From: Pseudoselenomonas ruminantium
Lineage (GTDB): Bacteria; Bacillota; Negativicutes; Selenomonadales; Selenomonadaceae
Direction: 5' to 3'
Length of the DNA stretch: 50,164 nucleotides
Assembly: GCF_900113715.1 (NCBI RefSeq)
Contig: NZ_FOQK01000023.1
Coordinates: 1-50,164 of the forward strand
The position numbers and the translations under genes are program-made. This document shows, one piece after another, positions 5,960 through 45,703 of this stretch (positions are counted from its first letter, which is position 1; each line of letters starts with the position of its first letter). A model generated the notes under the pieces. The model was not told the DNA's origin. It searched no databases and was given only the letters and a program-made list of their open reading frames with translations.

Positions 5960-6000
5960 CCCCGTTATTGCCTCCTAACCACCATGCTTACAAGAATAAA

Positions 6001-6024: not shown

Positions 6025-6046
6025 CATCAATAATCTGTCTTTTCAC

Positions 6047-7406: not shown

Positions 7407-7415
7407 AATACCTTT

Positions 7416-7461
7416 AGCATACCGATATCCCAGCGCTTCTGTAAGCCCCCCTGGGGGATAT
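7416..7461 (-). promoter_or_regulatory. Promoter P3 with the shared 19-bp operator (MATE gene)
   Basis: On the minus strand: operator ATATCCCCCAGGGGGGCTT (7443-7461), -35 TTACAG (7439-7444), 17-base spacer, -10 TATGCT (7416-7421). The spacer contains AAGCGCTGG, matching the second block of P1 and P2. The -10 box is only about 9 bases from the MATE start codon at 7406, so the mRNA may be nearly leaderless. The operator lies between the cbiK stop and the MATE start. Confidence 0.75.
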
Positions 7462-7477
7462 ATCTTTTTCCCAGCTT

Positions 7478-10023: not shown

Positions 10024-10033
10024 GGATATCTCC

Positions 10034-11623: not shown

Positions 11624-11662
11624 GAAAATATCATCCTCTCCACAACATGACTAAATCACATC

Positions 11663-27613: not shown

Positions 27614-27730
27614 AACAATATAATTCTATCAAACATATGCTATATATGCAAGAGCTATCCCACCATCAGACTATAAAAGCTCAACAGATTGCAGATTATC
27701 TGCCGTCCATCTTTCCAGGCCGCAAACACA

Positions 27731-27769
27731 AGAATCCCCGGTGCGCCTCGCAAACGCTCCGGGGATTCT
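27731..27769 (-). terminator. Terminator after cstA
   Basis: An 11-bp stem (AGAATCCCCGG with CCGGGGATTCT) lies 38 bases downstream of the cstA stop codon, with TGTGTTTG after it on the minus strand. Probably ends the cstA message and isolates the tRNA gene. Confidence 0.7.
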
Positions 27770-27806
27770 TTGTCTTAGGGAAAATTACAACATGAGCGAA
27801 TCTATC

Positions 27807-29486
27807 TTATGCTTCCGTTTCTGCTATCTCAGCCTTGCCCGTGACAAGTTCCTTGCCACAATGCTTGACCACCAGCACCGCCAGCGTCATCAGGGCCACT
27901 GCCAGTACGAGCTGCAGACCGTCCACCATGAATACGAAGCTTCCCGCCTGGAGTTTCGTCACGATACCGGCCACGCTCATGACGAGTGCGGTCATCGTGA
28001 CCAGGAACATGAACGTCATCGGTATATAGAGCATCCATCCCTGGCGTCCTGTCGTACGCAGGAACACAGCCAACGAGATCAGCACGAGCGCGGAGAGCAG
28101 CTGGTTGGCTGCACCGAACAGCGGCCAGATATTCATATAGCCAGCCAGGCACAGGATAAAGGCCAGGACCAGCGTGATGATGGTCGAGAAGTACTTATCC
28201 ATGCAGAGCTTGGCTGCTGCGCCAGCCGTTTCACCTTCGCTCGGCGTGAAGAGCTCCTGGAACGACATGCGGCCGATGCGGGCCACGGAATCGATCGTCG
28301 TCATCGCCAGCGCCGAAACACACATCGTGATGACACAAGCTGAGACGCCAGCCGGCAGGCCGAACATCTGGAAGAAGTTGCTGATGGAACCTGCAAAGAT
28401 CTGGAACGGCGTCCCCTTCGGCAGGATGCCATTGCTGGCAGCAGCACAGGCGATGACCAAAGCAACTACACCGAGCAGGGACTCTACGAGCATCGAGCCA
28501 TAGCCGACCGGCAGCATATCCGTCTCATTGGCTACGGCCTTTGAGGAGGTCCCCGAAGAAACGAGGCTGTGGAAACCGGAGACTGCGCCGCAGGCAATCG
28601 TGATGAACAGGATGGGGAACAGCGACTGGCCATTGACCTCAAAGCCAACGAAGGCCGGCATATTGATGGACGGATTGGCGACAACAACACCGATGACACC
28701 ACCGGCTACCATGCCCAGCAGCAAGAACGACGAGAGATAATCACGCGGCTCCATCAGCAGCCACATCGGCAGCACCGAAGCGATGAAGCAGTAACCAAAG
28801 GTCACATATCGCCAGGTCTGGGCATCGAAGTAAAGCGGGAACTGCATGCCAACTGCAAACATAGCAATGACCAGCACAACAGCAACGACGAATTTGACGG
28901 CCCCCGTCGGATTGAAGCGGCGGATATACCAGCCAAAGCCCATAGCCACGAAGATATAGAGCATCGAGATCGATGCGGCCTGCGCCCCTGGGACGTTCGG
29001 CGTGCCTGCCTTCGTCATGCCGCTGAACGTATTGGCGAGAATATCGGCAAATGCCGCCAGCACGAGCAGGGTGAACAGCCAGCAGAACAGCAGGAACAGA
29101 CGGCGGCCCGTCTTGCCGACATACTGCTCGATCAGCATGCCCATCGACTTGCCTTTGTTCTTGACGGAGGCGTAAAGTGCCGTGAAATCCTGCACAGCAC
29201 CGAAGAATACGCCGCCGATGAGCAGCCACAAGAGCGCTGGTGCCCAGCCGAACATCGCTGCGATGATAGGGCCGGTTACAGGGCCTGCCCCCGTGATCGA
29301 CGAGAACTGGTGTGAGAACACCGTGAAACGCGAGGCAGGGGCGTAGTCCTGCCCATCCTCGAATTCTACCGCCGGGGTCTTCGCCCGCGGATCGATCCCC
29401 CAGGTCTTGACGAGCCACCGTCCATAGCCAGCATAAGCTGCTGCAAATACGACGATGGCCAGCCCTACCAATGTCAAACCATTCAT
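27807..29486 (-). CDS. cstA: CstA-family transporter (carbon starvation protein)
   Basis: About 559 residues, starting at 29486 (or the adjacent ATG at 29489) with AAGAAGGG upstream; a longer in-frame reading crosses the terminator-like hairpin and lacks a ribosome site. Polytopic protein of the CstA/BtsT family: FSSITGAGPVTGPIIAAMFGW, GAVQDFTALYASVKNKGKS and SGFHSLVSSGTSSKAVANE are family hallmarks. E. coli members import pyruvate or peptides. Here, pyruvate or peptide uptake in a fermenter is inferred. Its leader has a hairpin between promoter and gene. Confidence 0.9.
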   Translation of the reverse strand: MNGLTLVGLAIVVFAAAYAGYGRWLVKTWGIDPRAKTPAVEFEDGQDYAPASRFTVFSHQFSSITGAGPVTGPIIAAMFGWAPALLWLLIGGVFFGAVQDFTALYASVKNKGKSMGMLIEQYVGKTGRRLFLLFCWLFTLLVLAAFADILANTFSGMTKAGTPNVPGAQAASISMLYIFVAMGFGWYIRRFNPTGAVKFVVAVVLVIAMFAVGMQFPLYFDAQTWRYVTFGYCFIASVLPMWLLMEPRDYLSSFLLLGMVAGGVIGVVVANPSINMPAFVGFEVNGQSLFPILFITIACGAVSGFHSLVSSGTSSKAVANETDMLPVGYGSMLVESLLGVVALVIACAAASNGILPKGTPFQIFAGSISNFFQMFGLPAGVSACVITMCVSALAMTTIDSVARIGRMSFQELFTPSEGETAGAAAKLCMDKYFSTIITLVLAFILCLAGYMNIWPLFGAANQLLSALVLISLAVFLRTTGRQGWMLYIPMTFMFLVTMTALVMSVAGIVTKLQAGSFVFMVDGLQLVLAVALMTLAVLVVKHCGKELVTGKAEIAETEA

Positions 29487-29517
29487 CATAAGCCCTTCTT
29501 TCCCGAATGAATACACA

Positions 29518-29559
29518 AATAAAATAAATCCCGCCCACATCGCAGGATGCAGGCGGGAT
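29518..29559 (-). terminator. Attenuator-like hairpin in the cstA leader
   Basis: On the minus strand ATCCCGCC pairs with GGCGGGAT (29528-29559), followed by TTATTTTATTT (29518-29527). It lies between the predicted promoter and the start codon, so it probably cuts cstA transcription under some condition. Confidence 0.65.
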
Positions 29560-29639
29560 ACATTTGTATCTTCATTAAGACACAACTCCACAAATCGAGT
29601 ACATCGCGCCATTGCGATTGGACATTTCTTATGGAATGT

Positions 29640-29668
29640 ATCTTAACACCGGAAATATCATGTGTCAA
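29640..29668 (-). promoter_or_regulatory. Promoter of cstA
   Basis: On the minus strand TTGACA (29663-29668), a 17-base spacer and TAAGAT (29640-29645). It gives a leader of about 145 bases before the start codon at 29486. Confidence 0.75.
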
Positions 29669-29716
29669 CTTGTAAACATTAAGAAGTAATCTTCTGAATA
29701 CTGTCAACTTTTGTTT

Positions 29717-30823
29717 TTATTGTGCAGACTTTTGCGCTTGGCGTTCTTTCTGACGGGCCTTTTCCGCCTTCCAAGCCCAGACGCAACGGATGCCAGGGTG
29801 CATGTTGGGCAGGACAAAACAACGGCTGCACGAAACGCAGATGGATTTTTCCGCTCCAGCCAATGACTTGGTGACAAAATCCGGCTCAGCGATCAAGGCC
29901 CGCCCCAGCGAGACCGCATCGATGCCAGCAGCCAGGACGGCCTCCATGTCAGCCAGCGAACGCACGCCACCGACGAGGCTCAGCGGCTGCTCAGGGACAA
30001 GCTGTTTGAGCCTTGCCGCTTCCTCCAGATAGTAAAGCGTCGCTGTCTTTGGCTGATTGATGAAATCAACGCCAGACAGCTCGACAAGCTCCACACCGAT
30101 TTCCCGGCAGCGCTTGAGTATCCAGACCATATCCTCATGATACGCCGCCTTATCTTCATGCTTCGTATCGATATTGATCTTGATGAATACCGGGAAAGTC
30201 TCCCCACAGGCCTCCTTGATGCCACGGACGATTTCCTCGACGATGCGGAAGCGGTCCGCAATGCTGCCGCCATACGCATCGGTACGCTGGTTGAACGTCG
30301 GATCGATGAACCGTGAGAGCAAGTACGAATGTGCCGCGTGGAGCTGCAAACCATCGGCGCCGACAGCCTGCAGCCTTTTTGCTGCGGCAATGAAACACTG
30401 CTCGATATGGTGGATTTCCTCTATAGTCAGTGCGCGCGCCTCCCGCCCCTTCTTCAACGGCCGGGCGACGACATCGACGAGATCGTCGTTGTCGATTGCC
30501 CGCGGCCCTGCATGTGAGAGCTGCGGGATGAACCGCGCCCCTTCCGCCTGCACGCTTGCCGCCGCGCGGCGGAACTGCTCGGCAAAACAATCCGCATAGA
30601 TATTGACCTGCTCAGGGTTCGCCCGGCCGAGCGCATCCACGCAGCAATGTCCCGTGATAATCGTACCGACACCATTTTTTGCCAGCTGCTCATACATCGC
30701 ATATTCAGCCTCGGTCATATACCCCTCCTGGCTTGGCAGGAAACTATGGACTGCCGACCGCAGCACACGATTCTTGAGTCTGATATGGGGAAGTTCCAGT
30801 GGTGTTTCGATTCTGGTACTCAT
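29717..30823 (-). CDS. Fe-S flavin oxidoreductase of the old yellow enzyme family
   Basis: A 368-residue TIM-barrel FMN enzyme. N-terminal LKNRVLRSAVHSF, the active-site stretch QLSHAGPRA, HAAHSYLLSRFIDPTFNQRTDAYGGS and GGVRSLADMEAVL. The C-terminus has CVSCSRCFVLPNMHPGIRC, a C-x2-C-x2-C-x11-C set like the [4Fe-4S] site of trimethylamine dehydrogenase and enoate-type reductases. It lacks their large NAD-binding C-terminal domains. Substrate unknown; probably reduces an activated C=C bond. AGGAGG before the ATG supports the start. Confidence 0.85.
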   Translation of the reverse strand: MSTRIETPLELPHIRLKNRVLRSAVHSFLPSQEGYMTEAEYAMYEQLAKNGVGTIITGHCCVDALGRANPEQVNIYADCFAEQFRRAAASVQAEGARFIPQLSHAGPRAIDNDDLVDVVARPLKKGREARALTIEEIHHIEQCFIAAAKRLQAVGADGLQLHAAHSYLLSRFIDPTFNQRTDAYGGSIADRFRIVEEIVRGIKEACGETFPVFIKINIDTKHEDKAAYHEDMVWILKRCREIGVELVELSGVDFINQPKTATLYYLEEAARLKQLVPEQPLSLVGGVRSLADMEAVLAAGIDAVSLGRALIAEPDFVTKSLAGAEKSICVSCSRCFVLPNMHPGIRCVWAWKAEKARQKERQAQKSAQ

Positions 30824-30885
30824 AAGCTACCTCCTGTAAGCGTTCTATAATACACACGTTATTTTCATAACTTTATCGCAAATAT

Positions 30886-30917
30886 AAAAAGAGTGTTGGA
30901 TGACTAGCACCCAACAC
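30886..30917 (-). terminator. Terminator after murA
   Basis: Minus-strand stem GTGTTGG/CCAACAC (30893-30917) followed by TCTTTTTATATTTG. It lies 18 bases beyond the murA stop. Confidence 0.8.
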
Positions 30918-30934
30918 CGGATTTCATGGAAAAG

Positions 30935-32200
30935 TTATTGATCGACACGGCAGATATCCGCACCCAGGCCCACGAGCTTGTCGACCAGATTGTCGTAGCC
31001 GCGGTCGATATGATGGATATAGCCTACCTGTGTCTCGCCCTCAGCCACGAGGCCTGCCAGTACCATAGCTGCACCAGCACGCAGGTCCGTCGCCTTGACC
31101 TGACAGCCCATGAGTGTCTCAACCCCCTCGACAACCGAGGTACGTCCATCGATCTTGATGTTCGAACCCATGCGCTTGAGCTCATCGACATGCATGAAGC
31201 GGTTCTCGAATACCGTCTCTGTCACGAGCCCTGTCCCCTCAGAAACTGCGAGCATAGCCATGAACTGCGCCTGCATATCCGTCGGGAAGCCCGGATATGG
31301 CATCGTCTTGATATCAACAGCCTTCGTGCGCTTATTGCAGACCACGCGGATGCCATTGACATCCTCTTCGATGGTCACGCCAGCCTCTTTGAGCTTGGCA
31401 ATGACCGGCTTCAGATGTTCACTGATCGCATTCTCGATGTAGACATCGCCCTTGGTCATCGCAGCGGCAACCATGTAGGTACCAGCCTCGATACGGTCGG
31501 GGATGATCGTATAATCGCGGCCCATGAGCTTCGGCACGCCATCGATCTTGATGACATTGGTGCCAGCACCACGGATCTTCGCGCCCATCACATTGAGATA
31601 GTTCGCCAGATCGACGATCTCCGGCTCCTGTGCTGGATTCTCAAGGATTGTCTGGCCTTCGGCCATTGAAGCCGCCATCAGGATATTCTCCGTCGCACCG
31701 ACGCTCGGAAAATCCAGATAGATCTTAGCGCCTTTGAGGCCCTCCGGCGCCGTCGCTTCGATGAAACCATGACCAATCTTGATGTCCGCGCCCAGCGCCT
31801 CGAATCCCTTGAGGTGCAGGTCAATCGGACGCGTGCCGATGGCGCAGCCACCCGGCAGCGATATCTTGGCCTGGCCGCAGCGCGCCAAAAGCGGCCCCAT
31901 GATCAGAAACGAGGCACGCATCTTGCGCACGAGGTCATACGGAGCCTCACAACTGCCAATCACCGTGCTGTCAACCTTGAGCTGATGCTTTGTCTCATCA
32001 AACTCAGCCTTGACGCCCAACTTCTTCAATACTTCGGTAATGGTATGAACGTCTTCGAGTGCCGGCACCTCATCCAGCAGACTCGGGGCATCCTGCCCCA
32101 GAAGCGTCGCCGCGATGATTGGCAGGACGGCATTCTTGGCGCCGCTGATCTTTACCCGGCCCTCCAGCCGGTTTCCCCCATGTATAATCAACTTTTCCAT
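30935..32200 (-). CDS. murA: UDP-N-acetylglucosamine 1-carboxyvinyltransferase
   Basis: 421 residues, normal length. MurA transfers enolpyruvate from PEP to UDP-GlcNAc in the first committed step of peptidoglycan synthesis. Signatures: [17 protein letters not shown] at the N-terminus, the active-site Cys119 in [13 protein letters not shown], and the C-terminal [15 protein letters not shown]. Having Cys, not Asp, suggests fosfomycin sensitivity of this copy. A GGAGG lies 12 bases upstream of the ATG. Confidence 0.96.
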
Positions 32201-32289
32201 TAAGTTCGTTATCCTCCTATAGTTGTGCTTTCAGAAAGCATCAACACATAGTTTATCATCATATCATCCTTATGACAATAGTCTTCCCG

Positions 32290-34275
32290 TCAGTTTCTCG
32301 CAATCGTCAGCGTCGAATGGACGACGTTGTCGATGATGTAATTCGTAGCAAATTTCGTCTTGCCCGCGCTTTCCTTCCCCTGGAGGCCGAGCAGATCGAC
32401 TTTATGGCCCTTGGCCTGCATAGCCTGCAGGGCACGGCGCTGAGCGCTGGCCGACACCGGCTTCTGCACCTGGCTCGGTGCGATGATGACCTCATTGTTG
32501 CGGCCCGTTTCCTGCAGATTCTTGAGCTTATCCTCCGTTGTCTGTTTGGAATCCTCTTCGCTGACGACATCAACGCCCGACTGCTGCAGAAGCATAAGAG
32601 CTGTCGCTGGCACGAGGCCGCCGCCACGGATATCGAGATTCATCGGCCCGCTCGGCTGCGATTCCGGCACCGTGAACGGAATGACAAGGGTTTCCTTGGC
32701 CTTGCGGTACGGCTTGATGGTCGTCGTGAAGTTGACCGTCTCCCCCGGCTTCACGGTTTTCTTGTCCGGGATGGCCGAGATGAGCGACGCCGTCTTGCGG
32801 TTGCTGTCAACATCGATATTGACCTGGACATCGATGATATCCGATTCCTTTTCCTTATTCTGGCTGATGACATTCATGGCCTGCATGAGCTCAGCCATGG
32901 CGATCTGCCCGACATCCGAGGCATTATAGAACATGTTCTTGCGCTCGACCTTGCCGCTCGCAACAGCATCCGTGCGGATGGTGAACCCCACCTCCGCAGT
33001 ACCGGCGCTGAGATCATCGGCCGTCTTGCTCAAGGCTGCATAGGCAATGCCGCCGCTGAGCTGCGGCAGGAAATCTTCATCGTAAGCAATGCGGGCGTTG
33101 TAGTCCGCCGTGCGGCCCAAGGATTTATCGGTCACCTTGACCTTGATGGGTACCACCGTCGGGAACTTGCCAAGCACGCCAGCGATTCCCGTGGCACGAT
33201 CCTGGTTGATACGGCCGATGATGTTGCCGATGCTGGCAATCTTCATGCCGTTGCTCTGGCCGCTGATCGTACCGACCACCTTCGCATCCGTCATGAAGTA
33301 GTTGACGTTGCCGCGATGCAGGAACGGGTGTCCAAAGGCCAGGATTTTCTTGCCGTCCACAGCCGTCACCGTCCCCGTGGCCCCGACAGCAAAGTCGCCA
33401 TAAGCCACGGCCACGCCGACAGCGGAGCCCGGAACGAGGGAGGCATCGTAGACAGTCTTCTGCGCCTCTGCCATGGTCGGCGCGCCCATCGGCAGGAACT
33501 CCATCGTCCCCTGCGGATCGATCTGCTTCTGCAGGAAATCCAGGCCAGCCTGATTGAAGCCCGCAAAATACATGACATCCTTCGGCTCAGCCTTAGCCGT
33601 ATCAGCGGCTTTCGTCTCGTCAGACGCCGTCTCCGCTGCTGCCTCCTCTACGGACGCCTCTTCATCTTTTGCTGCTGCGGCCTTCTTGTCGGCAGCAACA
33701 GCTTCTCGGGCGCGGGAAACGAGCTCATCGCCATAGACAGTGTCCTTCGCGCCGTTCGCCTCACGCTCCTTGCGTTTCTTTTCCTTCTCGGCCTTGGCCT
33801 TCGCTGCATTCTCTGCCGCCTTCTTGATATCGATGGTATGGATGCGCGTCTTGTTCTTGCGGTCCGGCATCTTCCAGAGCGGTGTCATCTCGTCGATAGG
33901 CGTGATGAAGAACGTGTAGGGCGTCATCTCCTTGATGCCCGCCGCCACAGCACCGATTAGATAGCCATCAACATAGACGGGACTGCCGCTCATTCCCTGC
34001 AGGATGCCGCCTGTCTGCTCGATGACCGGCCCGGAAGCCTTCGCCATGATCATAGGCTGCGAGCCCTTGCCATTGTCGACCAGGCCGATGATATCCACTT
34101 GGAAATCGCGCAGCTCACCGGAGCTGTCAATGACCGTATACGCCGTCCCCGTCATGCCCTCCCGGATCTGGTCATGCGCCAGGATCGGGTCCATCGCCCA
34201 GACGGGCAAAGCCTGAGCCGACAAAAACAGAGCCGTCAGCCCCGACACCAACATCTTCTTTATATATGTACGCAA
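32290..34275 (-). CDS. S55 (SpoIVB-like) serine peptidase domain protein
   Basis: About 661 residues. A TTG start at 34275 is preferred because GAGGTGA fits it; a GTG at 34284 overlaps that site. Sec signal peptide ending near LPVWA. The S55 domain has GGILQGMSGSPVYVDGYLIGAV (nucleophile Ser) and VDGKKILAFGHPFLHRG. An Ala/Lys/Glu-rich segment at about 155-240 splits it, likely a coiled coil or flexible linker. The C-terminal half is a beta-rich region. In sporulating relatives SpoIVB signals to sigma-K; here it lies among envelope genes, so a role outside sporulation is inferred. Confidence 0.8.
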   Translation of the reverse strand: MRTYIKKMLVSGLTALFLSAQALPVWAMDPILAHDQIREGMTGTAYTVIDSSGELRDFQVDIIGLVDNGKGSQPMIMAKASGPVIEQTGGILQGMSGSPVYVDGYLIGAVAAGIKEMTPYTFFITPIDEMTPLWKMPDRKNKTRIHTIDIKKAAENAAKAKAEKEKKRKEREANGAKDTVYGDELVSRAREAVAADKKAAAAKDEEASVEEAAAETASDETKAADTAKAEPKDVMYFAGFNQAGLDFLQKQIDPQGTMEFLPMGAPTMAEAQKTVYDASLVPGSAVGVAVAYGDFAVGATGTVTAVDGKKILAFGHPFLHRGNVNYFMTDAKVVGTISGQSNGMKIASIGNIIGRINQDRATGIAGVLGKFPTVVPIKVKVTDKSLGRTADYNARIAYDEDFLPQLSGGIAYAALSKTADDLSAGTAEVGFTIRTDAVASGKVERKNMFYNASDVGQIAMAELMQAMNVISQNKEKESDIIDVQVNIDVDSNRKTASLISAIPDKKTVKPGETVNFTTTIKPYRKAKETLVIPFTVPESQPSGPMNLDIRGGGLVPATALMLLQQSGVDVVSEEDSKQTTEDKLKNLQETGRNNEVIIAPSQVQKPVSASAQRRALQAMQAKGHKVDLLGLQGKESAGKTKFATNYIIDNVVHSTLTIARN

Positions 34276-34318
34276 AACAGTCACCTCATCTTAATGCGTA
34301 AAAATCCATTGTTTTTCT

Positions 34319-34347
34319 ATTATAGCATACAATACGCGGAAAGACAG
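34319..34347 (-). promoter_or_regulatory. Extended -10 promoter of the S55 peptidase gene
   Basis: On the minus strand TGCTATAAT (-10 at 34319-34324, with the TG extension) lies 35 bases before the translation start. No convincing -35 box. Confidence 0.6.
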
Positions 34348-34356
34348 TTGTACCCA

Positions 34357-35802
34357 TCATTTTTTCTGCAGGATCAGTGCACTGCCGACCCGGCGCTCCT
34401 GTCCATCGGAAGGCGAATTCTGCACCTGCCCGCCGACAACCAGATCACTCGATCCGCCGCCATCGAGATTGATGGCATCGCGAGCACCAAACTTCACGAG
34501 CAACTGTGCCCACTCGGTCAGCGTCAGCCCATGGCTGTCCGCCTGGCGGCCATCGACGACGCCAAACAGGTAATTGCCATTCTTGAGCACGGCCACCGCA
34601 CTGCGCGGTGCCCGTCCATACCGGATGTCCGAGGGGAATTGCTCAGCCGCTACCGTCACATTGACACGACCATTCTGGACGAGACGCGGGCCAGCGCCCA
34701 TGATATCCACAGCCTTGTTCCACTTCGCGCCCAAGTCCTGCTCGATGACCGCGCGGTCACCGACGCGCACGCCAGCAAATGCATCCATGGCCTTGCCATG
34801 GACCGAAACGACATACCCATTGGACGGTATCACGGAATTGCCCGTCTGGATCTTCGTCACCCGACCATTCTGCACAGTGAACTCCAGGCCGAACTCATTC
34901 GTACGCGTACGGCTGCCATACCATTTGTTGTAGAGGATCAGATTATCGACACCGCGCTCAGCATCGACCCCCGAAATGCTCTGAGTCACATCCCCCAGCG
35001 TCACCTGGCCATCATAGGCAACCGTCCCGAATATCGAGCTGCCATCTGGCAGGAAACCGATGGCCGAACGCGTATAATACGTCGTGCCAGCCATCAGGCC
35101 ATCGATCTTGACCGTGCCGATCATATCACCATTACCAGCAAAATAAGTCGCATTCACCGCCGCCACAGCATTCTGTGCATCCGATATGCCACTAGTCGAC
35201 TGCAGTCCCGGTACATGGCCACGAGCCAATACCGGCTTCACCGTATACAGGTCTTTGTCCGCCTCAACGAAATACGCCGACACTTTGCCCGCATCATCCC
35301 AATAGATATAGCTGCGCTTGGCCAGCCCCGGTGCTGCCATCTCCGTATACAGGCCATCAAAAGCCAGCGGCAGGATATCGCCCTCAGCCTCCGAGCCCGT
35401 ACGGCGCACCGTCCCTGACGGCTTGGCCGAAGCCTTCGCCGTCTTCGGCAGGATGTCCACGAATACCCGCGCGGGGTTGCTGAGTTTGTTAGCCTTATAA
35501 GTAAGTCCTGGCTTGAGCCGCAGGGTGACCAGCATGTGGCCCTTGCTGAGTACATACTTCACCGACTCGATGCGGCTGCTATGGAAGGGCTTGCGCTTGA
35601 AATCCTTCTCCGATACGTTCGCCATATCGATAGTGATTTCCCGCCCATCAGCCGATGCCTTGATCTGATAGGACGGCTCCGACGAAAGATCAAATACCAC
35701 GCGGTCATGCTCGCCACCGCTATGATAGCGCACCGAAGTCAAGTCCGCTGCCGAGGCCAGCACCGCCGTCTGCAGGGTGAATACCGAAGCCAACAACGCC
35801 AC
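34357..35802 (-). CDS. AMIN-NAGPA protein with a missing N-terminus
   Basis: 481 residues from GTG. An AMIN domain (about 20-120) that binds peptidoglycan precedes a phosphodiester glycosidase (NAGPA/YigT) domain with VNATYFAGNG, RSAVAVLKNG and the catalytic-type NLDGGGSS. The first residues (VALLASVFTLQTAVLASAAD) look like the hydrophobic core and cleavage site of a signal peptide without its charged n-region, and no ribosome site is visible. The reading frame overlaps the broken end of flgI out of frame, so the 5' end appears lost at the junction near 35806. Expression and export are uncertain. Confidence 0.75.
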   Translation of the reverse strand: MALLASVFTLQTAVLASAADLTSVRYHSGGEHDRVVFDLSSEPSYQIKASADGREITIDMANVSEKDFKRKPFHSSRIESVKYVLSKGHMLVTLRLKPGLTYKANKLSNPARVFVDILPKTAKASAKPSGTVRRTGSEAEGDILPLAFDGLYTEMAAPGLAKRSYIYWDDAGKVSAYFVEADKDLYTVKPVLARGHVPGLQSTSGISDAQNAVAAVNATYFAGNGDMIGTVKIDGLMAGTTYYTRSAIGFLPDGSSIFGTVAYDGQVTLGDVTQSISGVDAERGVDNLILYNKWYGSRTRTNEFGLEFTVQNGRVTKIQTGNSVIPSNGYVVSVHGKAMDAFAGVRVGDRAVIEQDLGAKWNKAVDIMGAGPRLVQNGRVNVTVAAEQFPSDIRYGRAPRSAVAVLKNGNYLFGVVDGRQADSHGLTLTEWAQLLVKFGARDAINLDGGGSSDLVVGGQVQNSPSDGQERRVGSALILQKK

Positions 35803-36803
35803 TGTGAATTCGCCGTTGCAGGCAGCACGATTGTGCTGGCCTTGTCTTCCTGCACATCCACATCCGTATTGCGCGTCACGATCGTCGTACCATAGCTGAA
35901 GGGATCCGGCTGGTTCGCATTCGCGTTCTTCTGCACCTTGATGGACAAGCCGCCCTGTGTGATGGCGATTTCGTCCACCGACACATCACCGCCCATGACA
36001 ATGGTACCCGTACGCTCGTTGACGACTACCTTGGCGATATTGTCCGGCATGACCGGTAGCTCCTCGATTGTCGAGACAAAGCCTACCACGTTATTGCGGA
36101 AGTACGCGGGGATCGTGATATCGATACGCCCTGGATTCGAAGCCTGCGCGACATTGCCATACTGCGAATTGATGGCATTGGCAATGCGTGCAGCCGTCGT
36201 GAAGTCCGGCTCGCGCAGCGACAGCGAGATGCGGCCAGAACCGCCGATCTCATCTTCGACACTGCGCTCGACAATCGCACCATTCGGTGTCGTCCCCACC
36301 GTCGGGAAATTCTTGGTCGCCGTATTGCCGCCGTTGCCAGCCGCAAAGCCACCTGTCGACACCGGCCCCTGCGCGACAGCATAGACCGTGCCATTGCCAG
36401 CCCGCAGCGGAGTCTGCAGCAGCGTACCGCCCTGGATGCTCTTCGCATCGCCAATAGACGAAGACGTGATATCTATCGTATCACCCTCACGGACAAACGG
36501 CGGCAGCGTAGCCGTTACAACAACCGCTGCCACATTCTTCGCCTTAAGCGTCGACTGATCGATCACCACGCCAAAGCTCTTGAGCATATTGACAATCGAC
36601 TGGATCGTCTCCGTCGACTTATTGCCATCGCCCGTACCGTTGAGGCCGACGACAAGGCCATAGCCCATGAGCTGGTTCGAGCGCACGCCCTGAACCTTCG
36701 CGATATCCTTGATGCGGGTCGCCGCGCTTTCAGCCGCAGCCGTTCCCGGCATCAGACTCAGCGCAAACACGCCCGCCATCAACAAAGCCAGTAATTTCTT
36801 CAT
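35739..36803 (-). CDS. flgI: Flagellar P-ring protein FlgI, C-terminally disrupted
   Basis: About 355 residues from the ATG at 36803 (MKKLLALLM). Sec signal peptide ending near GTAAA. Core features are IKDIAKVQGVRSNQLMGYGLVVGLNGTGD and NERTGTIVMGGDV. The homologous region ends at STIVLPATAN; the roughly 38 residues that normally follow (a conserved stretch about a hydrophobic ALNALG...PRDLI helix) are replaced by WRCWLRYSPC, an out-of-frame read into the next gene. So FlgI is probably non-functional, or the assembly is wrong. It forms the P-ring in intact form and lies in a flg operon. Confidence 0.85.
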   Translation of the reverse strand: MKKLLALLMAGVFALSLMPGTAAAESAATRIKDIAKVQGVRSNQLMGYGLVVGLNGTGDGNKSTETIQSIVNMLKSFGVVIDQSTLKAKNVAAVVVTATLPPFVREGDTIDITSSSIGDAKSIQGGTLLQTPLRAGNGTVYAVAQGPVSTGGFAAGNGGNTATKNFPTVGTTPNGAIVERSVEDEIGGSGRISLSLREPDFTTAARIANAINSQYGNVAQASNPGRIDITIPAYFRNNVVGFVSTIEELPVMPDNIAKVVVNERTGTIVMGGDVSVDEIAITQGGLSIKVQKNANANQPDPFSYGTTIVTRNTDVDVQEDKASTIVLPATANSQWRCWLRYSPCRRRCWPRQRT

Positions 36804-36829
36804 ACGTCTATCTTTCCTCCATGTCATCC

Positions 36830-37432
36830 TTAGAACAGGAAGTTGAAAATCTGCGTCAGGATGCCCTGCCGCTGCTTCGCATTGAGCGGGCCCTTGCCAT
36901 CGAATTTCACGGTCGCATTGGCAATCTTCGTCGAAGGGATCGTGTTGTTGGCCGTCACATCGTCCTGGCGGCAGACCCCGCGAAACGTGATCTTATGCTC
37001 GTCGCGGTTCTGCCAGATGGACTGCGTACCCTCGACAGTCATATTGCCATTCGGCTGCACGTCGACCACCGTGACCGTGACATTGGCGCGGGTCGTGTTT
37101 TTGGAAGTAGCCTGGCCATTTGCCTTGAACGAGTCCGACCCACTGGCCGAAGCCGCCTTCAGGAAGTCGAAGATGCCCACACCAGCAGACAAGTCCGTCT
37201 TGCCGCTCTTGCTGTTCGAACTACCGCGCGTAGCCGACAGGCTCGTCGTCTCACTGATGACGATTGTCAGGATATCGCCGACATTGCGCGCCTTGCGGTC
37301 TGCAAACACATTATAGGACGAATCTGACCACAGCGACTGGGCAGAGGCCATCGGCAGCGTAAGGTTCACCGCCAGCAGGCTCACCGCCAGCACTGCCGCC
37401 AACTTCTTATATCGTTTCCCCATTTTCTTCAT
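36830..37432 (-). CDS. flgH: Flagellar L-ring protein FlgH
   Basis: About 200 residues from the ATG at 37432 (MKKMGKRYKK), preceded by AGGTG. The core SLWSDSSYNVFADRKARNVGDILTIVI matches FlgH, as do ANVTVTVVDVQPNGNM and RGVCRQDDV. The signal peptide ends ASAQS and there is no lipobox cysteine, unlike classical FlgH lipoproteins. It would form the ring in the outer membrane. The Gly/Ser-rich segment at about 70-100 is normal. Lies between flgA and flgI. Confidence 0.9.
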   Translation of the reverse strand: MKKMGKRYKKLAAVLAVSLLAVNLTLPMASAQSLWSDSSYNVFADRKARNVGDILTIVISETTSLSATRGSSNSKSGKTDLSAGVGIFDFLKAASASGSDSFKANGQATSKNTTRANVTVTVVDVQPNGNMTVEGTQSIWQNRDEHKITFRGVCRQDDVTANNTIPSTKIANATVKFDGKGPLNAKQRQGILTQIFNFLF

Positions 37433-37446
37433 AGGTTCACCTGCTT

Positions 37447-38199
37447 TCAATTCACGATTTCAACGGTTGCAGCATCGACTACCGTCCCGCGCAGGACTTT
37501 CCCCGATGCCACGTTGCGCACCCGGATTTTTGCGCCCAGGCGGCCGCGCTGCATGGCGATGCCATTAGCTGACACTTCGATGCCATGATAATTCACGCGG
37601 ATTGTCACGGGTGTGCCCACATCCATCACAATTGGCTGCTGCAGCATTACCGACTCCACTGCAGTCCCCTCTTTGATGGTGCGCGCAGCTACCCGGCCCT
37701 GCACCTCCTCCAGCTTGGTGAGGTAGCGGCCTGCCCCGCCAGCGACGCTGCGCTCCTCCAGCCGCAGGTCAGCGGCTGCGATTGGCTTGTCGATGCGCAG
37801 GTCATGCGCTGCCACGAGCACCTTGTCGTAGACATTGACACGGTAGTAGCAGACCACACGGCGATAGAATTCCCCATTCAGGAACACACGCAAATGTACG
37901 GGATTCGTATTGCCATAGCGGAGCTTCTGTGGCAGTTCCGCCTCACAGACGACCTCGCCAGCTGGCAGCTCCATCATCTGCGGAGCTCGTATAAGCTGCA
38001 ATTCATGCCGCCGCATCTCGCCAGTCTGGACCAGCGTGCTCTCTATCTTCTGCCGGGCAATCTCTGCAAACTTCTCCGCAGGGACCATCTGCTGCACCAC
38101 CCCCTGGGCATCTGCCACAGCGGGCAGCGAAGCGAACGCAAAGAGACAGAAGAAGCCACTCCATAACAAGCATAGAATGGCTAACGTGTTCTTCTTCAT
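37447..38199 (-). CDS. flgA: Flagellar P-ring assembly chaperone FlgA
   Basis: A 250-residue periplasmic protein. Signal peptide to about residue 31 (LPAVADA). The C-terminal SAF-type domain (KVLVAAHDLRIDKPIAAADLRLE) and the end GTPVTIRVNYHGIEVSANGIAMQRG are typical of FlgA. It helps FlgI assemble round the rod. It begins 5 bases after flgG. Confidence 0.88.
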   Translation of the reverse strand: MKKNTLAILCLLWSGFFCLFAFASLPAVADAQGVVQQMVPAEKFAEIARQKIESTLVQTGEMRRHELQLIRAPQMMELPAGEVVCEAELPQKLRYGNTNPVHLRVFLNGEFYRRVVCYYRVNVYDKVLVAAHDLRIDKPIAAADLRLEERSVAGGAGRYLTKLEEVQGRVAARTIKEGTAVESVMLQQPIVMDVGTPVTIRVNYHGIEVSANGIAMQRGRLGAKIRVRNVASGKVLRGTVVDAATVEIVN

Positions 38200-38204
38200 T
38201 TAAA

Positions 38205-38996
38205 TCAGCGCTTGAGCCCGTTGGCAATCTCCAGCATGGAGTCGGAGGTGGTGACTGCCTTAGAGTTGGATTCATAGGCGCGCTGCGAGACAATCATGTT
38301 GACCATTTCCTCAACAATCTGCACGCTGCTCATCTCCAGGGTACCCTGCGTCAACGTACCGGCGCCTTCCTCGCCCGGGTTGCCCTCGATGGCTTCACCC
38401 GAAGCCTCAGAAACGATGAACAGGTTCTTGCCGATCGCCGTAAGACCGGACGGATTGACAAAGCGTGCCAGACGGATCTGGCCGACATTCGTCTGCTCGC
38501 CGCCAGCTGGCTTGCAGGAAACCTGTCCATCGCCAGCGATGACGATCGAGTCGCTCGGCGCCGTCTGATCGATCGTGATATCGTCGGCCAGCGGATAACC
38601 GTCAGTCGTTACCATGCGGCGCTGGGAATCGAGCTTGAACGAACCATCACGCGTATAGCCAATTGTACCATCCGGCAGCGTGATGCGGAAAAAGCCCTCG
38701 CCCTGGATACCGATGTCCGTCGGATTGTCCGTCGTCTGCAGCGATCCCTGCGTGAAGACGCGGTTCGTCGCTGCCACGCGCGTACCAAGACCAATCTGCA
38801 TGCCCGTCGGATACTGCGAATCCGCACCGCTCTGGGCTCCAGCATCACGGATCGTCTGATAGACCAGATCCTGGAATTCCGCGCGGACCTTCTTGCCGCC
38901 ATAGGTGTTGACATTTGCGATGTTATGGGCGATGACGTCCATATTCGTCTGCTGCCCCTTCATGCCGGATGCAGCCGACCAAAGTGCTCTCATCAT
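38205..38996 (-). CDS. flgG: Flagellar distal rod protein FlgG
   Basis: 263 residues. N-terminal MMRALWSAASGMKGQQTNMDVIAHNIANVNT and the C-terminal SSVQIVEEMVNMIVSQRAYE are the two rod/hook helices. The central GEGFFRITLPDGTIGYTRDG is conserved. Exported by the flagellar type III system, so no signal peptide. It is 92 bases downstream of flgF. Confidence 0.93.
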   Translation of the reverse strand: MMRALWSAASGMKGQQTNMDVIAHNIANVNTYGGKKVRAEFQDLVYQTIRDAGAQSGADSQYPTGMQIGLGTRVAATNRVFTQGSLQTTDNPTDIGIQGEGFFRITLPDGTIGYTRDGSFKLDSQRRMVTTDGYPLADDITIDQTAPSDSIVIAGDGQVSCKPAGGEQTNVGQIRLARFVNPSGLTAIGKNLFIVSEASGEAIEGNPGEEGAGTLTQGTLEMSSVQIVEEMVNMIVSQRAYESNSKAVTTSDSMLEIANGLKR

Positions 38997-39088
38997 GGTA
39001 TAAAAATCCTCCCTTGTCCCTTACAGATATAAAGGCGTATCTGTTTTCCTCTTTATGGTTTATCGGATAAAACCGTCATTTCCTTAAA

Positions 39089-39889
39089 TCAAACCCGTCC
39101 AACCTCATTGACAGATTTATCCAGCAGCGTATCCTGCGTCGTTACCGCCTTGGACCCGGCTTCATAAATACGATAGTTATTGATGAGGTTGACCATCTCC
39201 GAAACAACATTCGTATTCGAATTCTCGAGCATACCCTGATAGATTTCGCCCGTCGCCGCCTGGGGCTGCGCGCCCTGCTGCGGGTAGTAGAGGTTGTCCC
39301 CCTGCTTGAGCACAGCCCGGCGGTCGGGGCCAAAGCTCGTAAGCTGCAGCTGTCCGACCCGCTGGCCATCAGCCATGATCTCGCCCTTAGCGCCGATCGT
39401 CACCTTGGCTGCATCACCGGGGATTGTTATCGGCTGGTTGTTCGTGCCGAGCACAGCCTGCCCTCTGACCGTCTGCAGCTGTCCGCGCGACGAACGGTAG
39501 AAGTTACCATCACGCGTATAGCGGACACCCTGCGGCGTCTGGATGGCGAAATAGCCATCCCCCGAAATCGCTACATCAAGAGGATTGCCCGTCGTCTGGA
39601 AGCCACCCTGTGTATGGTCAGTCGCAATCTCATCGATACGCGAGCCCAGACCGAGCACACCCACCGTAGGAATGCTTTCGCCCACGCTGAACTGCTTGAA
39701 CGAAGTCACATTATTGAGGTTCTTGCCATCGTTGATGCGCTTGATGAGCATCGGTTCGAACTCCCGGCTGATGGCATCATCGCGCTTGAAGCCCGTCGTA
39801 TTGGCGTTGGCCAGGTTGTTGGCGATCGTGTCCGTACGCTTGGTCTCGGTGATCATGCCGGCTCCTGCCGTGTAAAGTCCACGCCACAT
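39089..39889 (-). CDS. flgF: Flagellar proximal rod protein FlgF
   Basis: 266 residues. N-terminus MWRGLYTAGAGMITETKRTDTIANNLANANTTGFKRDD and the C-terminal NVVSEMVNLINNYRIYEAGSKAV. The middle reads GDGYFAIQTPQGVRYTRDGNF. It is a FlgF/FlgG family protein; FlgF is preferred from gene order and divergence from the FlgG neighbour. AAGGGAGTG lies before the ATG. It follows mreB by 114 bases, which hold two hairpins. Confidence 0.88.
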   Translation of the reverse strand: MWRGLYTAGAGMITETKRTDTIANNLANANTTGFKRDDAISREFEPMLIKRINDGKNLNNVTSFKQFSVGESIPTVGVLGLGSRIDEIATDHTQGGFQTTGNPLDVAISGDGYFAIQTPQGVRYTRDGNFYRSSRGQLQTVRGQAVLGTNNQPITIPGDAAKVTIGAKGEIMADGQRVGQLQLTSFGPDRRAVLKQGDNLYYPQQGAQPQAATGEIYQGMLENSNTNVVSEMVNLINNYRIYEAGSKAVTTQDTLLDKSVNEVGRV

Positions 39890-40003
39890 GTATCTTCACT
39901 CCCTTATATCAGGCTTTTCTCCCAAGAAAAGCCACACTCTCCTACATCTCTATTTCGCGAAAAAAAGCGAAACTCCTTTCCAGGGTTCCGCCTTTCATCA
40001 AAT

Positions 40004-41026
40004 TTATTTGCCCGTCTTGAGGTTCATGGCCTTGCCATCGAACTTCGAGAATGTGTCGAGGGCCTTGCCGCAGCCAAGAGCCACGCAGGAAAGCGCATCT
40101 TCGGCCAGTGCCGTCGGGATATACGTCTCGCGGCGGATGAGTTCATCCAGTCCATACAGCATGGCACCGCCACCCGTCAGCACGATGCCACGGTCCATGA
40201 TATCCGCCGACAATTCCGGCGGCGTATCCTCGAGCACCTTCTTGACGCAATCGACAATGCGCGTGACCGACTGATGCATAGCCTCAGCCGCCTGTCGCGT
40301 ATTGATCTCCACATTCTTCGGCAGGCCAGAGAGCATGTCACGGCCACGGATATCCATGATCTCATTGCGCGCATCAGCAAAGGCTGCACCCACACGGATC
40401 TTGATATCCTCTGCCGTGCGTTCGCCGATCATGATATTGAACTCACGCTTGACATACGCGATGATATCCTCGTCGAACTTATCGCCAGCGATGCGCAGCG
40501 ATGCGCTGTTGACGATGCCGCCCAGCGAAATGACTGCGATATCCGTCGTGCCGCCACCGATATCGACGACCATCGAGCCGCAGGGCTCGACGATGTCAAG
40601 GCCAGCACCCAGAGCTGCGGCCAGCGGTTCCTCAATGAGCTGCGTATGACGGGCACCAGCCTGCTCAGCGGCCTCCTGTACGGCACGCTGCTCGACCATC
40701 GTGACCCCCGACGGAATACAGATCATGATACGCGGACGGAAGACAAAGCTGCGGCCGACAACCTTCTCGATGAAATGGCGCAGCATGCTCTCCGTGATGT
40801 CGTAGTCAGCAATGACACCTTCGCGCAGTGGACGGATAGCCACAATGTTGCCCGGCGTGCGGCCAATCATCTGGCGAGCTTCCTCGCCAATGGCCAGCAC
40901 GCGGTTCGAGTCGCGATCCACCGCCACAACCGACGGCTCGCGCAGCACGATGCCCTTGCCCTTCACATAAACGAGTACGTTTGCCGTACCCAAGTCAATA
41001 CCAATATCCATAGACATGCCAAACAT
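40004..41026 (-). CDS. mreB: Rod-shape protein MreB/Mbl
   Basis: About 340 residues if it begins at the ATG at 41026 (MFGMSMDIGIDLG); an ATG at 41059 gives 351. The first is nearer to the normal MreB N-terminus and has GGAAGGGG upstream. The actin-like nucleotide site shows DIGIDLGTANVLVYV, MVVDIGGGTTDIAVI, GERTAEDIK and VLTGGGAMLYG. It polymerises along the membrane to guide wall synthesis. Next to flg rod genes, as in many Firmicutes that have an mreB-flgFG operon. Confidence 0.93.
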   Translation of the reverse strand: MFGMSMDIGIDLGTANVLVYVKGKGIVLREPSVVAVDRDSNRVLAIGEEARQMIGRTPGNIVAIRPLREGVIADYDITESMLRHFIEKVVGRSFVFRPRIMICIPSGVTMVEQRAVQEAAEQAGARHTQLIEEPLAAALGAGLDIVEPCGSMVVDIGGGTTDIAVISLGGIVNSASLRIAGDKFDEDIIAYVKREFNIMIGERTAEDIKIRVGAAFADARNEIMDIRGRDMLSGLPKNVEINTRQAAEAMHQSVTRIVDCVKKVLEDTPPELSADIMDRGIVLTGGGAMLYGLDELIRRETYIPTALAEDALSCVALGCGKALDTFSKFDGKAMNLKTGK

Positions 41027-41082
41027 GTTATTCGCGGTCCCCTTCCAATCTATAGCCATATCAGCGTACGAATCTGATATCT

Positions 41083-41391
41083 ATTATACAAATCACGCTG
41101 AAAACTTTATGGAGCAATTTTCTTTTTCTTCCTGCCCCAAAAATCACATCTTATAATATATAATAAAAAAACACGAAATACAACAGCTGCCCGCTTTTTC
41201 TGTGGCATTTCTCACAAATTAATTCATTTTCACGTCATTTTCGACAATTAGCCTAATTTTAAGAAAACTTTCGCTTTTATTTCTTTTTCTCACGCATTGA
41301 CAATGCCTAAACAGAATGATACGATTAGCTTGACTTAGGGATATTTTTCACATTAATATTCTTTCATAAAAAATCAGGGGGTTTTTACAAC
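41083..41391. promoter_or_regulatory. Divergent intergenic region of mreB and ldh
   Basis: About 330 AT-rich bases without a gene. On the minus strand a TATAAT (41083-41088) serves mreB. On the plus strand a strong TTGACA (41297-41302), 17-base spacer, TACGAT (41320-41325) serves ldh. A second set TTGACT (41330-41335), 18 bases, TAATAT (41354-41359) follows. An AGGGGG lies about 12 bases before the ldh start. Confidence 0.7.
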
Positions 41392-42348
41392 ATGAACAAC
41401 AGAAGAAAAATCGTCGTCATCGGTGCCAGCAACGTCGGCTCCGCCGTTGCTAACAAGATCGCTGACTTCCAGCTCGCAACGGAAGTCGCTCTGATCGACC
41501 TGAACGAGGACAAAGCTTGGGGCGAGGCTAAAGACTCCAGCCATGCTACTTCCTGCGTTTACAGCACGAACATCAAGTTCCACCTCGGTGACTACGATGA
41601 CTGCAAAGATGCTAACATCATCGTCATCACGGCTGGCCCGTCCATCCGCCCGGGTGAGACGCCGGATCGTCTGAAACTGGCTGGCACGAATGCTAAGATC
41701 ATGCAGTCCGTCTTCGGCGAGATCGTAAAACGCACGAAATCCGCTATGATCATCATGATCACGAACCCGCTCGATGTTGCTACCTATGTTGTATCCACCC
41801 AGTTCGATTACCCGCGCAACCTCATCCTCGGTACTGGTACGATGCTCGAGACGTATCGTTTCCGCCGTATCCTGGCTGACAAGTACCAGGTTGATCCGAA
41901 GAACATCAACGGTTATGTTCTCGGTGAGCACGGCAACGCTGCATTCGTTGCTTGGTCCACGACGGGCTGCGCTGGCTTCCCGATCGGCGATCTCGACGAG
42001 TACTTCCACAAAACGGAGAAACTCAGCCACGAAGCAGTCGAGCAGGAGCTCGTACAGGTTGCTTACGACGTCATCAACCGCAAAGGCTTCACGAACACGG
42101 GTATCGCTATGGCAGCTTGCCGCTTCATCAAATCCGTTCTGTACGATGAGCACACGATCCTTCCGTGCTCTGCAGTCCTCGAAGGCGAGTATGGCATCAA
42201 AGACGTTGCTCTTTCCCTGCCGCGTATGGTCTGCGCTGATGGTATCATGCGTTCCTTCGAGATCCATCTCACGGACGACGAGCTCGAGAAGATGCACAAA
42301 GCTGCTCAGAGCGTCCGCAGCGCTCTCGATGGTGCTGGCATCAAATAA
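41392..42348 (+). CDS. ldh: L-lactate dehydrogenase
   Basis: 318 residues. Reduces pyruvate to L-lactate with NADH. It has the NAD site (VVIGASNVGSA), ITAGPSIRPGETPDR with the substrate arginine, ITNPLDVATYVV and GEHGNAAFVAWS with the catalytic His (about 180). Close in style to the L-LDH of Selenomonas ruminantium. Codon use is strongly biased to GCT, GTT and ACG forms compared with the neighbours, suggesting high expression. A strong promoter region and a clean terminator frame it. Confidence 0.93.
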   Translation: MNNRRKIVVIGASNVGSAVANKIADFQLATEVALIDLNEDKAWGEAKDSSHATSCVYSTNIKFHLGDYDDCKDANIIVITAGPSIRPGETPDRLKLAGTNAKIMQSVFGEIVKRTKSAMIIMITNPLDVATYVVSTQFDYPRNLILGTGTMLETYRFRRILADKYQVDPKNINGYVLGEHGNAAFVAWSTTGCAGFPIGDLDEYFHKTEKLSHEAVEQELVQVAYDVINRKGFTNTGIAMAACRFIKSVLYDEHTILPCSAVLEGEYGIKDVALSLPRMVCADGIMRSFEIHLTDDELEKMHKAAQSVRSALDGAGIK

Positions 42349-42380
42349 TTGCCACGGCATCACGCATAAAGCAAAAACAA

Positions 42381-42410
42381 AGGAGACTTCCTTCCGGAAG
42401 TCTCCTTTTT
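42381..42410 (+). terminator. Terminator after ldh
   Basis: An 11-bp stem (AGGAGACTTCC with GGAAGTCTCCT) with a 4-base loop, then TTTT. It ends 5 bases short of the stop codon of the convergent kinase gene and may serve both strands. Confidence 0.92.
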
Positions 42411-42415
42411 CGTGT

Positions 42416-43735
42416 CTAATCCGTTCCCTGCCAATAGACCATCACCGTGACCCAGCCATCCTGTTGGCGGAAATCACACCGGGCATGATACTTTTGGATA
42501 AACGACCGCAACGAGATCATGCCTGTGCCATGTCCGGGCAGCTCACTGTATGGCAGTCCATCCGCATCGAGCAGCAGCGGCTCGGCAAACCGATTGGCCA
42601 CCGATAGAACGAACTGCCCGCCCGTATACTGCGCGGATACCTTGACCGCACGATCGGTGACCGGCTGCCGCATGCTCGCGTGCAGGGCATTCTCCAGCAG
42701 ATTGGACAGCAGGATAGCCATATCCGTATCCATGCCGGTCATCTCCCGCGGCAAGTTCACTTTCTGCTGCAGTGGGATCTCCAGATTACCCAGATGATAC
42801 ACATAGATCGACAGCGTCGCATTGATCAGGTCATTGGCGCAGAATTCCTGCAAAGCCGTGTGCTCCAGCTCCGCTGCCTGCTTGTCGACCAGCTGCCTGG
42901 CCTCGCTGATGCGCCCCCCATCCAGCAGGGTACCCAACAGCCGGTTGTAATGGCGCATATCATGGCGCAGGACGCGCAGCGCCTGGCGCTTCTCTTCCTC
43001 GAGCCTGGTGTACTCCCGCAGGGAGTAGAGCTGCTGCGCCAGCAGATTATTGCGATTGACTTCCGCCGTATGCTCTGACATCTGATGTCCAGCCATCAGC
43101 ACCAGCCGGAACATCAAGAAGAAGAAAATGGGCAGGGCCAGCCGGCCCACGCGTTCGGGCACGCTATGATAGAGCTGCCCGTCCAGCATCGGCAAAGCAT
43201 AGGCAAACAGCACCACTAAGGGCATCAAAGAGATATACAGCCCCAAAGGCCGATATTGGAAGAAACGCTGCGTTGGCACCAAGCGGCTGAACAAGCGCCG
43301 CTCCAACGGGATCAGCAGCGTGAACAGCAGCAGATAGCAGCTCAGCAGTGCCAGCATGTGCAGGATATAGCTATAATCCCCGGGCAGGAGCCCGCCGACG
43401 ATAAACCCGCTGATCGTATGCAGCAAAAGCGAAAACAAGCTGTGCATCCCCAGGACAAACAAATGCTGCACAAAGCCCCGCGGAATGCAGTAATAAGCCA
43501 GCAGGAAAAAGGGCACCCAGCCAAAAGCCACCAGCAGTTTGAAACGCAAGACATCCCCGTCATACATGTTCAGAACAGCGGTATAGCCTAAAACCGCCAG
43601 GACACCCCAGCCAACCGACAGCCATTGCAGCTTGCGCCGCTGAGCAGCCAATACAGTCCTGGCAAAGGGCAGGTAACGGAGCCATACCCCCGTAAGCTGC
43701 AGACAGACCAATGCCAACGCCAAGAGAACTACCAT
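42416..43735 (-). CDS. GHKL sensor histidine kinase of a LytTR system
   Basis: About 439 residues from the ATG at 43735, which has TGAGGGG upstream. About six helices form the N-terminal half (to about 200). The kinase region has the phosphoryl His in LRHDMRHYNRLL, the N-box LLSNLLENALHAS and G-box GHGTGMISLRSF, as in AgrC/CitA-type GHKL kinases. The helical input domain is unlike the PAS type and suggests a membrane-soluble or peptide signal. It follows the response regulator by 10 bases. Confidence 0.85.
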   Translation of the reverse strand: MVVLLALALVCLQLTGVWLRYLPFARTVLAAQRRKLQWLSVGWGVLAVLGYTAVLNMYDGDVLRFKLLVAFGWVPFFLLAYYCIPRGFVQHLFVLGMHSLFSLLLHTISGFIVGGLLPGDYSYILHMLALLSCYLLLFTLLIPLERRLFSRLVPTQRFFQYRPLGLYISLMPLVVLFAYALPMLDGQLYHSVPERVGRLALPIFFFLMFRLVLMAGHQMSEHTAEVNRNNLLAQQLYSLREYTRLEEEKRQALRVLRHDMRHYNRLLGTLLDGGRISEARQLVDKQAAELEHTALQEFCANDLINATLSIYVYHLGNLEIPLQQKVNLPREMTGMDTDMAILLSNLLENALHASMRQPVTDRAVKVSAQYTGGQFVLSVANRFAEPLLLDADGLPYSELPGHGTGMISLRSFIQKYHARCDFRQQDGWVTVMVYWQGTD

Positions 43736-43745
43736 TGCCAGCCCC

Positions 43746-44474
43746 TCACTTTCTGAGCAGATACTCCATATATTCATGCGCCGTCTCACGGTAAAGCCGC
43801 CGGCTTATGGGCAGGCGCTCGCCATTATTGAGCGCAAAACCATCATCCGTCAGCGCGGACACCGCCGCCAGATTGACCAGCACATGATTGTAGCACTCGG
43901 TGAAATCAGCCACATCCAATGCTGCAGCCACATCCGCATAGGGATTATCGACAGCCATCTCGGCCCCCGACAGCAAGTGGATGACACAGCCGCGCCGCCC
44001 GCCTACCCGGCGGCCGCCCTGGACATCGATATAGGCAATGCGCTCCCAAGGGACCTTGACCGCGCGGCCATTCAGCTGCACCAGAAGCGAACTGTCTGCC
44101 AGCAGCGGCAACAGGCGCTGCAAGATATCCATAAGCTGCGTCCGCGCTTGTTCGACCGGCTTCAGCAGGTACCCTGCCGGATACGCCTGATAGCCCTCCA
44201 GCGCAAAATCGGCACTGTTCGTCAGAAAAATGATGGGCAGCTGCGCCGCCTGCTTGCGGACAGCAAGTGCCGTCTCGATTCCATTGATCCCCTGTATGCA
44301 GATATCGAGAAACACCAGTTGGAACATCTCTGGCGCAAAGCTGGCCAGGAATTCCTCGCCACTGGCGAAAAGCTGCATATCCGCCTGCGCTACAAGCTCG
44401 ATTCCGCAAGTGCGCAAGACTTGTTGCAAGGCATCCCGCGCCTCGGCTTCATCATCAACAATAGCAATTTTCAC
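43746..44474 (-). CDS. LytTR-family response regulator
   Basis: About 242 residues from the GTG at 44474, preceded by GGGGGAAAG; longer starts add a hydrophobic tail that has no ribosome site. Receiver domain with DDE (residues 7-9) and the phospho-acceptor Asp in LVFLDICIQGINGIE. A C-terminal LytTR DNA-binding domain reads VKVPWERIAYIDVQ, through VNLAAVSAL and GERLPISRRLYRE. Two near-identical direct repeats 77 bases upstream (44551-44587) may be its target. Confidence 0.9.
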   Translation of the reverse strand: MKIAIVDDEAEARDALQQVLRTCGIELVAQADMQLFASGEEFLASFAPEMFQLVFLDICIQGINGIETALAVRKQAAQLPIIFLTNSADFALEGYQAYPAGYLLKPVEQARTQLMDILQRLLPLLADSSLLVQLNGRAVKVPWERIAYIDVQGGRRVGGRRGCVIHLLSGAEMAVDNPYADVAAALDVADFTECYNHVLVNLAAVSALTDDGFALNNGERLPISRRLYRETAHEYMEYLLRK

Positions 44475-44517
44475 AACTTTCCCCCACAAAAAAATCCAGA
44501 AAATCACTTCTACCATC

Positions 44518-44546
44518 ATTATACATGATTTTTCTGAAATAGGAAG
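44518..44546 (-). promoter_or_regulatory. Possible promoter of the LytTR-kinase operon
   Basis: On the minus strand TATAAT (44518-44523) with a 17-base spacer from CTTCCT (44541-44546), a poor -35 box. It sits just downstream of the direct repeats, so activation is plausible. Confidence 0.4.
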
Positions 44547-44550
44547 ATTT

Positions 44551-44587
44551 TACCATTTTTGGCAAGAATCTACCACCTTTGGCAAGA
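44551..44587. promoter_or_regulatory. Tandem direct repeats, candidate LytTR operator
   Basis: TACCATTTTTGGCAAGA (44551-44567) and TACCACCTTTGGCAAGA (44571-44587) are direct repeats with a 20-base period, between divergent promoters. LytTR regulators such as AgrA bind pairs of about 9-bp direct repeats with a 12- to 13-base gap, so this is a fitting site; the period is one or two bases short. It lies just outside the -35 region of both promoters. Confidence 0.6.
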
Positions 44588-44590
44588 GCA

Positions 44591-44619
44591 TGGCATCCCG
44601 CCCCAAAGTCCGCTAAAAT
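44591..44619 (+). promoter_or_regulatory. Possible promoter of the receiver-HD-GYP operon
   Basis: On the plus strand TGGCAT (44591-44596), 17-base spacer, TAAAAT (44614-44619), and AAGGAGG before the start codon of the gene. The -35 box is weak. The direct repeats abut it from upstream. Confidence 0.4.
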
Positions 44620-44660
44620 CAAGGTGAGAACAACTATCCCAACAACAAAGGAGGCTCACC

Positions 44661-45701: not shown

Positions 45702-45703
45702 CC

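Follow-up and report, generated by a model that had tools for sequence, protein, structure and literature searches.

Introduction

The P ring of the flagellum is made of FlgI, and the name rod cap is given to FlgJ (PMC7693769). In a screen for motility genes of Agrobacterium, both flgI and flgJ were among the genes hit (PMC9812332), and for batch culture it has been noted that losing flagella may be an advantage (PMC6700657). In the locus analyzed here, flgI is cut short, flgJ is missing and the following gene has lost its start, all at one junction.

Genomes and gene order

The window spans contig C27 (50,164 bp) from end to end; the contig belongs to the source genome, G000, the assembly of which measures 3.11 Mb in 52 contigs, with a completeness of 100 and a contamination of 0.76. 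The minus strand carries, in order, mreB, flgF, flgG, flgA, flgH, flgI, an AMIN-NAGPA gene, a SpoIVB-type S55 peptidase gene and murA. FlgI, AMIN-NAGPA, S55 and the C-terminal domains of FlgF and FlgG were named from family matches (PF06429 for flgG and flgF), and the genes that we take to be mreB, murA, flgA and flgH were named by recognition. The features around the junction are as follows:

34357-35807, minus strand: AMIN-NAGPA gene (phosphodiester glycosidase domain), lacking its start codon, its ribosome site and 8 N-terminal residues (PF09992, PF11741, ORF list)
35739-35808, minus strand: out-of-frame tail of the flgI frame within the neighboring gene, with a stop at its end (ORF 35739-36827)
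35806-35811, plus strand: GAATTC created at the junction; the window has 13 such sites in all (sequence)
35807-35809: deletion junction (blastn blocks against loci L003, L004, L094 and L095)
35809-36827, minus strand: surviving 5' part of flgI (P-ring protein), last 38 codons gone (PF02119; identity to L003)
36830-39889, minus strand: upstream flagellar genes flgH, flgA, flgG and flgF, open and conserved, with proteins 91.3-99.6% identical to those of L094

Among the 40 relatives searched, the closest were Selenomonas ruminantium SIG241 (G002, a MAG; loci L003 and L032; FlgI identity 96%) and S. ruminantium strain GACV-9 (G001; loci L004 and L033; 94%), both of the same genus as G000. Over about 19 kb, DNA identity to the window was 88-90% for SIG241 and about 84% for GACV-9. 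Both carry intact flgI-flgJ-AMIN/NAGPA loci in which the gene order is that of the window, with an intact flgI end and without the arrangement seen at the junction.

Two further regions of the window were noted. The SpoIVB-like S55 peptidase (32290-34284; 664 aa, of which only 82 residues matched the profile) adjoins the AMIN-NAGPA gene, a position kept in both G001 and G002. A peptide/nickel-type ABC transporter region lies at 4176-13422, and the parts of it that were scanned, leaving out the frames between them, are two permeases (4176-5959), two ATPases (8388-10023), a binding protein (10037-11623) and another permease (12478-13422).

Truncation of flgI

The FlgI protein of the window matched PF02119 with 385 bits (cut-off 25.3), and it covered positions 1-305 of the 343 in the profile, so that family membership is clear and the C-terminus is incomplete. 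The PF02119 match ran from 1 to 343 or 342 in all 21 other members of the genus in the family survey, and the NCBIfam FlgI model was matched over 1-299 of 344 by the window protein as against 1-344 of 344 by the intact protein of L003. An earlier note, made from the letters of the window, had placed the end of FlgI homology at the motif LPATAN, about 38 residues early, and the relatives bear this out: the gene of L003 runs 38 residues past LPATAN, and 38 further residues followed by a stop were read in all 24 loci in which a motif search located the site (29 loci were examined, the remaining five not being read there). In the window, the frame continues past LPATAN for 22 codons out of frame and stops at 35739. 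All five solved P-ring sequences found aligned with the C-terminal end of the L003 protein, as far as residue 377 of its 378.

The headless AMIN-NAGPA gene

Both domains of the neighboring gene scored above cut-off (PF09992, 139.9 bits; PF11741, 26.8 bits), the AMIN match being partial (2-52 of 101), and no NCBIfam family was matched by its protein. The frame resumes at 35807 as TVALLASV, where the counterpart in L003 reads MNHLRRKITVALLASV after the ribosome site GGGAGGAAGG; both GGGAGGAAGG and the residues MNHLRRKI are absent from the window gene, as expected from the earlier reading that flgI runs out of frame into a neighbor that lacks the start of its signal peptide and any ribosome site. 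The first ATG, GTG or TTG since the preceding stop is the GTG at 35802. By eye, no ribosome site was found upstream of it and no charged residue in the head of the signal peptide, so that the start codon, ribosome site and complete signal peptide of the relatives have no equivalent in the window. Intact N-termini were present in L032 and L033. Of the 29 nearby loci, 26 have a relative of the AMIN-NAGPA gene downstream (L008 and L024 end at contig ends, and L025 was left out). The same holds for 36 of 50 loci named among the 61 fetched, the 14 misses not having been gone through singly. Among the literature matches listed, nothing on point was found about a role of AMIN-NAGPA with flagella.

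The junction and the missing DNA

When window positions 27730-46901 were aligned to the stretch fetched from G002, two blocks were obtained, 35809-46901 (89.9% identity) and 27730-35816 (87.7%), with small internal gaps only. Positions 28288-47054 against the stretch from G001 also gave two blocks, with the same breakpoint and no other break. The junction, previously placed at about 35802-35815, was thus narrowed to 35807-35809: the alignment to L003 reaches the base matching 35809 and restarts at the base matching 35807, and base 35808, which matches neither flank of L003, would be supplied by the left-side AAT codon of L004. The net loss, worked out by hand from the alignments, is 677 bp relative to G002 and 673 bp relative to G001. 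Because 677 is not divisible by three, the reading frame of flgI is not carried over into that of AMIN-NAGPA.

In L003, the missing stretch comprises the flgI end, a FlgJ of 146 residues (with a match to the Rod-binding domain and partial FlgJ matches), a terminator-like hairpin and T run, a ribosome site and the beginning of AMIN-NAGPA, and its layout in L033 is the same. The claim that one deletion or joining error lies behind both broken genes therefore stands, since everything from the flgI end to the AMIN-NAGPA start intervenes between the joined points in the nearest relatives, and so does the suggestion that the missing piece may include flgJ.

The hairpin and its T run separate flgJ from AMIN-NAGPA, at 865-895 of L003 (minus strand) and at 6609-6640 of L033. 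The fold of the region in L003 reached -19.0 kcal/mol, which none of 200 shuffles matched, and in L033 a longer piece including the hairpin reached -27.1 kcal/mol, matched by 1 of 200. In both relatives the hairpin stands 22 bases ahead of the AMIN-NAGPA start, leaving scant space for a promoter after it, and a possible role for it is as attenuator of AMIN-NAGPA.

A deletion mediated by an exact repeat was considered and is not proposed. The sequence ACGGCG occurs near both ends in L003, with its copies 675 bp apart as against the 677 bp lost, and it is out of register with the junction; a shared 6-mer was also found in 5.2% of 20,000 random pairs.

Absence of flgJ in the assembly and in the family

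Searches of the whole G000 assembly for FlgJ gave no match to PF10135 and no match to the FlgJ protein of L003, and the missing DNA gave one 27-base match only, on contig C9 and in the hairpin part. As neither the profile, the protein nor the DNA search found the gene, its relocation elsewhere in the genome was rejected.

Of the 41 genomes compared, 37 gave a FlgI match and 36 a FlgJ match. Both were lacking in G027, G030, G032 and G038, and G000 was the only genome with FlgI and without FlgJ; in G021, FlgJ consisted of residues 1-70 only, at a contig end. A family survey of 189 genomes scored presence in the genome, the placing of flgJ directly behind flgI not being verified for every one. 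FlgI is present in 170 of them, 166 have the Rod-binding domain and 165 have both, G160 having the Rod-binding domain only; these sets were compared by hand, with three genomes of the Rod-binding survey placed by exclusion. The five FlgI-bearing genomes without a Rod-binding match were G000, G021, G042, G122 and G192. The last four were rejected as parallel losses and are uninformative, because flgI or flgJ runs off the contig end, which leaves G000 as the only one of the 170 with a loss in mid-contig.

Age of the event and state of the other flagellar genes

By a simple Nei-Gojobori count, dN/dS against L094 was 0.046 for the remainder of flgI and 0.032 for AMIN-NAGPA, with seven neighbors at 0.004-0.112; against L095, the values were 0.070 and 0.066, with neighbors at 0.003-0.127. 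All four ratios are inside the ranges of the neighbors. They indicate that purifying selection acted on what remains of flgI and AMIN-NAGPA during most of the period after these relatives diverged, and the event would therefore be recent, a dating that is relative to that divergence only and does not distinguish a natural loss from an assembly error.

Across G000, the matches to FlhA, FliG, the rod/hook C-terminal domain (Flg_bbr_C, six matches) and the flagellin N-terminal domain (ten matches) were all without stops; outside the window, the flagellar genes looked at were confined to these families. An old decay of the flagellar system is not supported, given the low dN/dS and the open flagellar genes. 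The ten flagellin matches are distributed over contigs C7, C9, C12, C34 and C41, and C7 has three of them within 5 kb. One weak match, at 7152-7532 of C34 and just behind a rod/hook-domain match, may be FlgL and not flagellin.

Discussion

Very probably, one deletion event of about 677 bp took the flgI end, flgJ and the start of AMIN-NAGPA, at a time that is recent relative to the divergence from the closest relatives. The two-block alignment, the absence of the missing DNA elsewhere, the lack of a long repeat at the ends and the lack of GAATTC in the flanks all favor a real deletion. Such a deletion would have removed the last 38 codons of flgI, the whole of flgJ and the hairpin behind it, along with the ribosome site of AMIN-NAGPA and its first 8 codons; it would be carried by the living strain, its ends having presumably been joined with little or no homology. 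The strain would then be unable to complete the rod and the P ring and so would not swim, and AMIN-NAGPA would probably not be translated, or be poorly translated and not properly exported. The known roles of FlgI and FlgJ, the Agrobacterium screen and the alignment of the FlgI end to P-ring sequences together lead us to expect that the strain is non-motile.

An error of assembly or consensus, in which the locus is intact in the strain and the assembler skipped about 677 bp, is the rival that survives best, and we consider it unlikely. In its favor, G000 is a draft in 52 contigs, and no stops interrupt the other flagellar genes looked for. Against such an error, the missing sequence is found in no other contig, about 19 kb around the junction aligns without a second break, and the ends share at most a 6-base match that is out of register. 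The overlaps usual in assembly are far longer than 6 bases.

It is very improbable that the arrangement is a fixed and functional one, in which a shortened FlgI and a rod free of FlgJ still build a working flagellum. The openness of the other flagellar genes looked for and the conservation of those compared would suit it; if it were true, a diderm Firmicute would be assembling its rod and P ring by a new route. However, the FlgI end that is lost here aligns to every solved P-ring sequence found and is kept in every relative read at that site, and G000 alone among the FlgI-bearing genomes lacks the Rod-binding domain with no contig end as a possible reason.

The loss of an EcoRI fragment in cloning can be practically dismissed: the earlier note was right that GAATTC is present on the junction, and L003 carries one GAATTC within the missing stretch, but neither L003 nor L004 has the site at the homologous place of either flank, so that a simple EcoRI excision does not fit and was rejected as the cause, and 8 of the 12 other GAATTC sites of the window lie within the stretch aligned to G002 without any further break (the remaining four were not examined).

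The deletion is thus probably an ordinary and fairly recent loss of function, and the main use of the finding is as a caution to users of the G000 genome. The FlgI of 362 residues and the headless AMIN-NAGPA should be taken as deletion products. The flagellar set is incomplete, and a prediction of motility from the gene list is therefore probably wrong for this strain. If the strain serves as the reference of its species, a second isolate is needed before the loss can be read as a trait of that species.

Among the literature matches listed, no title or abstract opening dealt with this Selenomonas deletion. Compared with the intact loci of SIG241 and GACV-9, the window is without 677 bp and 673 bp, respectively. 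The spontaneous loss of motility in culture discussed for Campylobacter jejuni NCTC 11168 (PMC6700657) is similar in that flagellar function is likewise broken in one strain; it differs in that, in Selenomonas, one deletion affects three genes.
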